Assembly (NCBI RefSeq): GCF_014645235.1
Contig: NZ_BMLM01000002.1
Span: forward strand, 480,696-544,695
Source of the DNA: Agrococcus terreus
Lineage (GTDB): Bacteria > Actinomycetota > Actinomycetes > Actinomycetales > Microbacteriaceae
Length of the DNA: 64,000 bases
Direction: 5' to 3'
The notes beneath the pieces are model-generated. The model was not told where the DNA came from. It saw only the letters and a program-made list of their open reading frames with translations, and made no database searches. Positions 16,074 to 18,444 of this stretch are shown piece by piece. A program made the position numbers and the translations under genes. Within the stretch, counting starts at the first letter, position 1, and each line of letters starts with the position of its first letter.

Positions 16074-16496
16074 ATGCCCATCACCTCGACCGCGAGCACC
16101 CAGTGGACCGGGGGCCTCGGCTCCGGATCCGGCACGACGACGCTCGGCACCGGCTCGACCTTCGACCTCACCTGGCGCGCCCGCGCCGAGGAGGGCGGCG
16201 CCACCACGCCCGAGGAGTTCCTGGCCGCCGCACACGCGTCCTGCTACGCCATGGCGCTCTCGCACACGCTCGGCGAGGCGGGCCACGAGCCCGAGACGCT
16301 CGCGACGAGCGCGAAGGTCTCGTTCGTGCCGGGCACGGGCATCACCACGAGCGTGCTGACCGTCCAGGGCTCCGTGCCCGGGCTGTCGCAGGAGGAGTTC
16401 GCCGACTACGCCGAGCAGGCGAAGGCTGGCTGCCCCGTCTCGCAGGCGCTCTCGGGCGTCGAGATCCGGCTCGAGTCCGCCGAGCTCTCGGCCTGA
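16074..16496 (+). CDS. OsmC-family peroxiredoxin
   Basis: This 140-residue enzyme detoxifies organic hydroperoxides. The two catalytic cysteines are in the expected context: AAHASCYAMALSHTL near residue 60 and AKAGCPVSQAL near 123. The N-terminus (WTGGLGSGSGTTTLGTGS) and length match OsmC rather than Ohr. A strong AGGAGG RBS precedes the ATG by 6-7 nt, in contrast to the many leaderless neighbours. A hairpin at 16530-16550 follows. Confidence 0.92.
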   Translation: MPITSTASTQWTGGLGSGSGTTTLGTGSTFDLTWRARAEEGGATTPEEFLAAAHASCYAMALSHTLGEAGHEPETLATSAKVSFVPGTGITTSVLTVQGSVPGLSQEEFADYAEQAKAGCPVSQALSGVEIRLESAELSA

Positions 16497-16529
16497 CGGC
16501 GACCGCGGCGCACAGCCGTCGCGAGGCGT

Positions 16530-16550
16530 ATCCCCCGGTCACCGGGGGAT
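16530..16550 (+). terminator. Terminator after the OsmC gene
   Basis: A perfect 9-bp stem (ATCCCCCGG with CCGGGGGAT) around a TCA loop lies 33 nt after the OsmC stop. It separates that gene from the microprotein gene at 16663. No U-tract follows, which is usual at this GC content. Confidence 0.65.
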
Positions 16551-16662
16551 CGCTCCCGGCGCCCGGCCATCCGCGTGTCGGAAACTTTGCAATAGCGGAA
16601 AGCACGCTCCGACCCGTATAACAGAAGGGTCGGTTCCCCCCACTCACAGATCGGAGCGCATC

Positions 16663-16767
16663 ATGCGTCCCAACAAGAACGACCTCAGCACCAGCAAGTC
16701 CGGTGACGGCTGGATCATCATGGACGCCGTCGCGCGCTCGGGCGACGGTTGGATCATCATGCGCTGA
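16663..16767 (+). CDS. 34-residue microprotein with duplicated SGDGWIIM motif
   Basis: ATG at 16663 starts a 34-codon frame with GGAG 7-10 nt upstream as RBS and TGA at 16765-16767. The peptide has a polar start (MRPNKNDLSTS) and then two exact copies of SGDGWIIM at residues 13-20 and 26-33, each preceded by Lys or Arg and linked by DAVA. The two copies use different codons for some residues, so selection on protein sequence is suggested. A -10-like TATAAC lies at 16617-16622; no convincing -35 box is at standard spacing. A 17-bp hairpin follows 13 nt after the stop. I know no homologue; function is unknown. Confidence 0.65.
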   Translation: MRPNKNDLSTSKSGDGWIIMDAVARSGDGWIIMR

Positions 16768-16780
16768 CCAGCGCGCTGAC

Positions 16781-16819
16781 GGCCGCGGCCCCGCACCACA
16801 TCGGTGCGGGGCCGCGGCC
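16781..16819. terminator. Very strong bidirectional terminator hairpin
   Basis: A perfect 17-bp inverted repeat (16781-16797 with 16803-16819, arm beginning GGCCGCGGCCCC) encloses the 5-nt loop ACATC. It lies between the convergent microprotein gene and the aldehyde dehydrogenase gene and can terminate both. Confidence 0.85.
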
Positions 16820-16842
16820 GTCCGTCCGGGAGGTCCGGGTCG

Positions 16843-18444
16843 TCAGGGCAGCACGACGGCGCCGTCGACGAGCCGCGGCAGCGCCGCGATCGCGTCGTCG
16901 CGGAGCGCGGCCGGCAGGAGCGCCTCGGGCACGTCCTGGTACGCGACGGGGCGCTGGAACCGCTCGATGGCGAGCGAGCCGACCGAGGTCGACCGGCCGT
17001 CGGAGGTCGCGGGGAACGGGCCGCCGTGCACGACGGCGTGGCCCACCTCGACACCGGTCGGCCAACCGTTCACGACGATGCGGCCCGCGAGCTCCTCGAG
17101 GGCGATCACGAGGTCGGCCGCGAGGGAACGCTCGTCGTCGGGCGCATCGTCGAGGTCGACGTGGACGGTGGCCGTCAGCTGCCCCTCGAGCGCCGCGAGC
17201 GCCGCGCGCAGCTCGCGCTCGTCGCCCCAGCGCAGCACGAGCCCGGTCGCGCCGAACACCTCGTCGGCCAGCGCCGGCTCGGCGACGAGGTCGGCCGCCG
17301 CCGCCTCGACGAGGCTCGGGGCGGGCGCGCGCTCGGCGCCCCCGCCCTCGGCGATGCGAGAGCCGCGGCCGGCGAGCGCGTCGCGGCCGGCGACGTAGGC
17401 GTCGCGGATGCCCTCGGTGAGCATGACCTGCCCGTCGCGGGCGGCGAGCGCCTCCGCGGCTGCGGCCACGAAGGGCTCCCCGGCCTCGCCGGAGGGGACG
17501 AGGACGAGGCCGGGGTTCGTGCAGAACTGGCCGGCGCCGAGCAGCAGCGAGTCGACGAAGGCGCGGCCGCGCTCTGCCGTGGCGGCGGACGGCAGCACCA
17601 CGACGGGGTTGACGCTGCTCATCTCGGCGTAGACGGGGATGGGGACGGGCCGCTCGCGCGCGGCCCGCACGAGCGCGAGCCCGCCGGAGCGGGAGCCGGT
17701 GAAGCCGACGGCGCGGACGCGAGGGTCCTCGACGAGGGCCGTGCCGACCTCACGCCCGGAGCCGAGGAGCGCCTGGTACGTGCCGGCGGGCAGCCCGAGC
17801 CGCTCGACGACCTCGACGACGATCGCCGACACGAGCTCCGCGACGCCGGGATGCGCCTGGTGCGACTTCACGATGACGGGGCAGCCCGCGGCGAGCGCCG
17901 AGGCGGTGTCGCCGCCGGCGTTCGAGAAGGCGAACGGGAAGTTGCTCGCGCCGAAGACCACGACCGGGCCGAGGGGCAGCCGCCGCTGGCGCAGCTCGGG
18001 CCGCGGGGCGGGCGCACGGTCGGGCAGCGCGGGGTCGATGCGGAGGCCCTCGGACAGTCCCGACTCGACGAGGCCCGCGAACAGGCGCAGCTGGCCGCTC
18101 GTGCGCCCGACCTCGCCGACGAGCCTCGCCTGCGGCAGGCCCGTCTCGAGCCGGGCCCGGTCGACGAGCTGCCCGGAGGCGGCGTCGAGCCCGTCGGCGA
18201 TGCCGCGGAGCAGCGCGGCGCGGGTCGCGGGCGGCGCGGCGCGCAGGACCGGGGCCGCCTCGGCGGCCGCGGCGGCGGCGTCGGCGGCGTCCTGGCGCGT
18301 CGCGAGGCCGAAGGCGGGCTCCAGCCGCTCGCCGGTGGCGGCGTCGACGCCGCGCACCTCCCCCGCCGTGCCGCGCCGGCGCCTGCCGGCGACGAAGGAC
18401 TCCCCCGTGAGCGCCGCGCGCTCGGCGACCTCGACGGCGCTCAT
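16843..18444 (-). CDS. Alpha-ketoglutaric semialdehyde dehydrogenase (NADP+-type aldehyde dehydrogenase)
   Basis: The 533-residue enzyme oxidises 2,5-dioxopentanoate to 2-oxoglutarate, the last step of the oxidative uronate/aldarate route. Aldehyde-dehydrogenase motifs are GASNFPFAFSNAGGDTASAL, the nucleotide segment FTGSRSGG, the general base in YAEMSSVNP and the catalytic Cys in GAGQFCTNPGLV. The long form with FCTNPG is characteristic of KGSADH type III. It overlaps the KdgD gene by 4 nt (ATGA), which makes the pathway role firm. It is the last gene of the uronate unit. Confidence 0.9.
   Translation of the reverse strand: MSAVEVAERAALTGESFVAGRRRRGTAGEVRGVDAATGERLEPAFGLATRQDAADAAAAAAEAAPVLRAAPPATRAALLRGIADGLDAASGQLVDRARLETGLPQARLVGEVGRTSGQLRLFAGLVESGLSEGLRIDPALPDRAPAPRPELRQRRLPLGPVVVFGASNFPFAFSNAGGDTASALAAGCPVIVKSHQAHPGVAELVSAIVVEVVERLGLPAGTYQALLGSGREVGTALVEDPRVRAVGFTGSRSGGLALVRAARERPVPIPVYAEMSSVNPVVVLPSAATAERGRAFVDSLLLGAGQFCTNPGLVLVPSGEAGEPFVAAAAEALAARDGQVMLTEGIRDAYVAGRDALAGRGSRIAEGGGAERAPAPSLVEAAAADLVAEPALADEVFGATGLVLRWGDERELRAALAALEGQLTATVHVDLDDAPDDERSLAADLVIALEELAGRIVVNGWPTGVEVGHAVVHGGPFPATSDGRSTSVGSLAIERFQRPVAYQDVPEALLPAALRDDAIAALPRLVDGAVVLP

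Follow-up and report, generated by a model that had tools for sequence, protein, structure and literature searches.

A tandem-motif microprotein gene downstream of osmC, found in Agrococcus only among the genomes searched

The DNA analysed here (the window) is a stretch of 64,000 nucleotides from Agrococcus terreus, in which a very small ORF follows osmC on the same strand. The features of the locus are as follows.

16074-16496, + strand: osmC, encoding an OsmC-like protein (PF02566, E=3.7e-16); the upstream neighbour, which adjoins the ORF in 17 carriers
16530-16550, + strand: short inverted repeat in the osmC-ORF gap, without a counterpart in the other carriers
16617-16622, + strand: TATAAC, a -10-like box read from the sequence, with like hexamers in relatives
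16653-16656, + strand: ribosome-binding site, GGAG here; by eye, many relatives have GAAGGAG or AAAGGAG
16663-16767, + strand: microprotein ORF of 34 codons, peptide MRPNKNDLSTSKSGDGWIIMDAVARSGDGWIIMR, with syntenic counterparts in relatives
16699-16722, + strand: SGDGWIIM, copy 1, eroded to DKDPVLEA in genome G017
16738-16761, + strand: SGDGWIIM, copy 2, kept as NGDPWIIM in G017
16778-16822, + strand: G+C-rich hairpin 3' of the ORF, with a 20-bp stem (16778-16797 / 16803-16822)

A sequence-only reading of this DNA had described the 34-codon ORF with its two SGDGWIIM copies, and these are exact in the sequence, coordinates included; the GGAG and TATAAC elements that it placed upstream were likewise located. 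The ATG at 16663 is the sole ATG, GTG or TTG start within the open frame of the ORF, and a single in-frame CTG lies upstream of it at 16426. The same reading had the gene isolated from both neighbours by terminators. There is indeed a hairpin downstream, but its stem is of 20 bp and not 17, starts 10 nt and not 13 past the stop codon, and is without a T tract; scans of 16450-16900 for terminators and for the sigma-70 consensus gave no match and no full promoter. The upstream element is a short inverted repeat (two analyses gave 10-bp arms around a 1-nt loop and 9-bp arms around a 3-nt loop) and not a terminator common to the other 16 carriers, where the longest perfect stem in the osmC-ORF gap is of 4-7 bp and of other sequence; terminator isolation on both sides is therefore not common to the carriers.

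Shuffling the residues of the peptide 100,000 times never gave an eight-residue repeat (maximum 5), and the next-best repeat among the 99 ORFs of 25-60 amino acids in the window (the microprotein ORF counted) is of 5 residues, so that a chance repeat was rejected. The two 24-nt copies are 88% identical at the DNA level and their three differences are all silent, as the sequence-only reading had stated; a fresh DNA duplication was rejected on the same silent differences.

Annotation readily overlooks bacterial proteins of fewer than 40 residues. Of the 22 Agrococcus genomes in which osmC was found, 17 proved, when the DNA 3' of the gene was read directly, to have a counterpart of 32-38 codons immediately after it. 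The frame, whose lack of conservation in close relatives would have refuted the sequence-only reading, is thus conserved. The motif itself is conserved in the 17 carriers, although the first copy has been lost in G017, the nearest relative compared, and the ORF is missing at five of the 22 osmC loci. Genomes G008, G021 and G023 (99% complete) have osmC with no ORF downstream; in G003 and G012 the osmC genes are more distant and likewise lack the ORF; and G009 (65% complete) and G015 (86% complete) gave no osmC match. In a search of 60 genomes with the single peptide, G017 was the only clear match besides the peptide's own genome (E=5.4e-7), all others being at 0.016 or worse. At E<=1, a profile built from 15 members matched 18 of the 24 genus genomes, including the same 17 found by synteny; the eighteenth and weakest match, in G003 (E=0.008), sits in a response-regulator-like reading frame and was discounted.

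Beyond the genus, the profile gave six matches at E<=0.01 among 299 Microbacteriaceae genomes, all of them in Agrococcus. When genome_contigs (84,980 species) was scanned for the tandem pattern, which requires a tandem with ATC/ATT Ile codons on contigs of at least 3,000 bases and so would miss single-copy or diverged members, 22 loci were returned. Nine of them are family ORFs in Agrococcus; the other 13 were judged to be chance: six are one-frame matches in open stretches of more than 200 residues, five have their halves in different frames and two are short same-frame matches. The two short ones, L092 (48 residues, Bacteroidales MAG) and L110 (37 residues, Actinomycetota MAG), are otherwise unlike the family and lack a Met ahead of the motif. 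A looser single-motif pattern occurred in 46 of the 299 Microbacteriaceae genomes, the 40 outside the genus having one or two matches each, and in the six genus genomes sampled the D[D/G]xIIM DNA pattern was confined to the microprotein gene. No such ORF lay downstream at 28 osmC loci of other genera (by a simple filter, with three unrelated repeat ORFs set aside), and plasmids and phages, searched with a single query each, gave no match; one match in viral contigs was rejected, with its motif halves in different frames inside a 216-residue open frame. The microprotein gene is a selected, lineage-restricted gene, found in Agrococcus only among the genomes searched.

These proteins share an acidic-hydrophobic motif, D[D/G/P](F/W/D)IIM, of which each has one to three copies; the N-terminus, spacers and tails vary, and the motif is the sole stretch common to all leader types. 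Four types were told apart by eye.

Type i, seven genomes: MK...QLP(T/I)HLL...GDDDIIM...GDDDIIM
Type ii, six genomes: ...FKQLPTHL...DDFIIMG..DDFIIMGGGS
Type iii, two genomes: MK..KP.RRGDDFIIMG..., G001 having three copies and G007 two
Type iv, two genomes (the window and G017): the W type, of which G017 keeps the second copy only

The spacer from one IIM to the next DDx or DGx core ranges from 1 to 7 residues. In every one of the 16 multi-copy members the residue before IIM is identical in all copies, being F, D or W according to type.

The sequence-only reading had proposed that the motif is kept by selection, and the comparisons bear this out. Across the 21 pairs formed by the seven type i members, which are of equal length, summed pN was 0.098 and summed pS 0.334, giving a pN/pS of 0.29. 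Comparison of copies within genes over the six-residue core (16 copy pairs from 15 genes, omitting G022, which is identical to G016, and G017, which has one copy) gave nine silent differences and no replacement. These nine are not independent, some being shared by descent (e.g. the copy-1 GAT in G014, G016 and G020), and Ile is almost always ATC, which limits silent change at Ile codons. Both the frame and the likeness of the copies are under purifying selection. Tandem copies are nevertheless not essential, since G017 manages with one. The presence of the same residue in all copies may reflect change passing through both copies, homogenisation, separate duplications in each type or allele exchange; separate duplications per type or homogenisation could account for the matching copies with no partner that requires the match.

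A tree of three proteins (13 rows, midpoint root only) grouped the 10 carriers included together against G008, G021 and G023 (100/100); the tree of OsmC alone was poorly resolved. A single gain or birth on the carrier side would agree with the three-protein tree, and a single loss on the non-carrier side may be the alternative. The three-protein tree also places G007 (F) inside a well-supported group with three D-type, long-leader type i species. The short leader KP.RRG occurs in both G001 (L026) and G007 (L032), and this sharing suggests either allele exchange or repeated deletion of the leader.

Upstream of the ORF, 17/17 carriers have a TA[TC][AG][AT][ACT] hexamer, at a distance from the start of 42-51 nt in types i, iii and iv and of 80-87 nt in type ii; at either distance it is a possible promoter of the ORF's own. 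In G013 (L027) both places are occupied by -10-like hexamers (TACATT at -81, TACAAC at -46), and the start codon is GTG. The osmC stop and the start of the ORF lie 89-119 nt apart in 15 carriers, 142 nt apart in G017 and 166 nt apart in the window, and because this gap is short in most species, osmC transcripts may there run on into the ORF. From the DNA sequence we infer that the ORF is transcribed. Two further observations concern this region: the block upstream of the -10 box (16577-16603; CTTTGC..TAGCGGAAAG in the window) is common to G017 and partly to others, and several type i species have, directly after the osmC stop, a TTGC-N6/7-GCAAA sequence that looks operator-like by eye. Upstream of osmC, a block comprising asparaginase, two O6-methylguanine methyltransferase-like genes, histidine phosphatase, FAD oxidase and FKBP is largely syntenic across the nine carrier loci compared; a Na+/H+ antiporter gene between FKBP and osmC was unmatched in five of the nine. 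On the other side, synteny with other Agrococcus genomes ends just past the hairpin (about 16822 in the window), and the spot to its right may be an insertion-prone boundary.

That the peptide belongs to no established family, as first proposed, agrees with searches of Pfam, NCBIfam, PADLOC, PHROGs and PDB sequences, all of which returned chance-level matches only (best E 0.23 for PHROGs, 0.32 for Pfam and 1.9 for PDB). The PDB match, MazE9, and an antifreeze beta-roll model matched by one member (E=0.32) were taken as chance. Among the papers searched, none contains the motif strings and nothing relevant on Agrococcus small proteins was found. AlphaFold2, run with nine sequences, produced no confident fold for the window and type i peptides (mean pLDDT 51.6 and 55.2, respectively), which fits a disordered peptide and does not prove disorder. 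The tails of two host proteins, as possible models for imitation, were compared with the motif. The SSB tail NDETPF is constant, being present in 22 of 23 genus loci (G012 was not recovered, and G009 and second SSB genes fall outside the count), and is unlike the motif, so an SSB-tail mimic was rejected. The FtsZ tail EEEDEFLPDFLR is loosely like the F type, both it and EDDFIIM running from acidic residues to F and hydrophobics; a cell-division regulator imitating this tail, through putative binding, is nonetheless highly improbable, given that the motif has no Pro and no second Phe, that EDEFLPDFLR is constant in 17/17 carriers against an F, W or D motif by type, with no co-variation, and that such similarity is frequent by chance.

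A short peptide signal or bacteriocin precursor, in which the motif copies would be cores that are cut out, possibly unmodified, and exported, is an alternative that we regard as unlikely. A leader followed by one to three matching cores with variable spacers is what such a precursor would look like, and microviridin-type RiPPs provide known multi-core precursors (PMC5934393), in which a variable leader is likewise followed by a core repeated in varying number. A basic residue had been reported before each copy; K or R is found there in the window species, and a basic residue precedes the first copy of type iii, but none stands directly before any copy in type i or before the second copy in type ii or type iii. 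Three RiPP-related families, YcaO, SPASM and peptidase C39, were each unmatched in 24/24 genus genomes, with control genomes positive in 5/14, 8/14 and 8/14 cases, respectively. These families stand for the YcaO and the radical SAM/SPASM classes of RiPP and for peptides with double-glycine leaders. Thioether, ester and azole chemistry uses side chains that are missing from the cores of types i-iii, which are without Cys, Ser, Thr, Lys and His (the spacers sometimes contain them), and most Agrococcus cores thus differ from those of microviridin-type peptides. The precursor reading is weakened by these two results taken together. In addition, only 9-12 residues precede the first copy in types iii and iv, no signal peptide was seen by eye, and the neighbourhood consists of osmC and a syntenic block of ordinary make-up. 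Of the roles suggested by the sequence-only reading, neither a modified precursor nor a membrane-active peptide gained supporting evidence, nor did a secreted precursor, and no signal or transmembrane segment was apparent by eye; its further suggestion, a regulator, may apply. Streptococcal SHP pheromones, e.g. DIIIIVGG, resemble the Agrococcus microprotein in running from an acidic residue into branched hydrophobics and GG, whereas the Agrococcus peptide is from another phylum, is repeated and has, by eye, no hydrophobic signal segment.

Also doubtful, in our judgement, is a self-assembling beta mini-protein in which the IIM strands would pair within or between molecules, with the acidic turns keeping it soluble or binding a cation. 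Type ii has a strand-plus-turn period of 8-9 residues, the copies match at the variable site, and there is a resemblance to RTX nonapeptide repeats (PF00353), with a Gly-Asp-rich turn and a short hydrophobic stretch at a period of about nine residues in part of type ii. The RTX consensus is GGxGxDxUx. This consensus is unmatched here, there are two repeats and not many, and the Pfam scan of 15 members (E<=1) gave no match to PF00353; moreover, the IIM-to-core spacer varies, G017 has a single copy, and the AlphaFold2 strands are of two residues only and of low confidence in the window peptide and absent from the type i peptide. The runs of ATC ATC ATG followed by a strong hairpin in 17/17 carriers (the 75 nt past the stop fold at -40.3 to -59.5 kcal/mol) might instead point to a translated leader controlling the next gene, by attenuation via Ile/Met/Trp codons, or to a dual-function small RNA, but we consider this very unlikely. 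Over about 1.2 kb past the hairpin any DNA is shared by just 24 of 136 carrier pairs and no stretch is common to all carriers; the window proteins to the right of the hairpin found one weak match (35%) in the loci of 12 relatives; the next window gene is on the opposite strand, as is the first downstream ORF in 8/10 loci (by a composition heuristic; G010 and G013, with both on one strand, are the exceptions); a convergent tRNA-Arg, tRNA-Arg(ACG), lies downstream in 5/17 loci; and selection acts on the protein sequence.

The reading that we favour, tentatively and at somewhat less than an even chance, is that the gene encodes an unmodified, largely disordered, intracellular, multivalent docking microprotein. 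A docking motif is suggested because the motif stays constant while leader length, spacers and tails change; and this reading is preferred over a precursor because of the missing YcaO, SPASM and C39 matches and the unsuited cores, together with the lack of any firm structure. The gene on the 3' side of osmC would be translated in vivo, and its product, remaining inside the cell and disordered, would present one to three copies of D[D/G/P](F/W/D)IIM to a putative partner protein. Contact would be made by the acidic head and the IIM strand, for example by beta-strand addition, and the presence of several copies would provide avidity. A more extended version of the docking reading adds that the gene was born or gained 3' of osmC in the ancestor of one clade, and that a single partner holds the copies alike, F, W and D switching together as that partner changes; as a whole this is improbable.

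Disordered microproteins acting via short linear motifs form a general class (PMC13276856). The Agrococcus microprotein is like these in being tiny, in having no predicted fold and in that its function probably resides in a short conserved motif; it differs in being bacterial, in being known from one genus and in carrying up to three motifs within 38 residues. Lineage-restricted microproteins are already known, and a tandem, matching motif that fills much of a tiny protein is an unusual variant of them. With a fixed chromosomal site, 17 genomes and a motif that matches within each genome, the family is a small system well suited to the question of how a lineage-specific microprotein gains a partner, and the function of the peptide could be addressed with one deletion. 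If the extended docking reading were true, a young bacterial protein would here provide a compact, natural example of coevolution between a motif and its partner.
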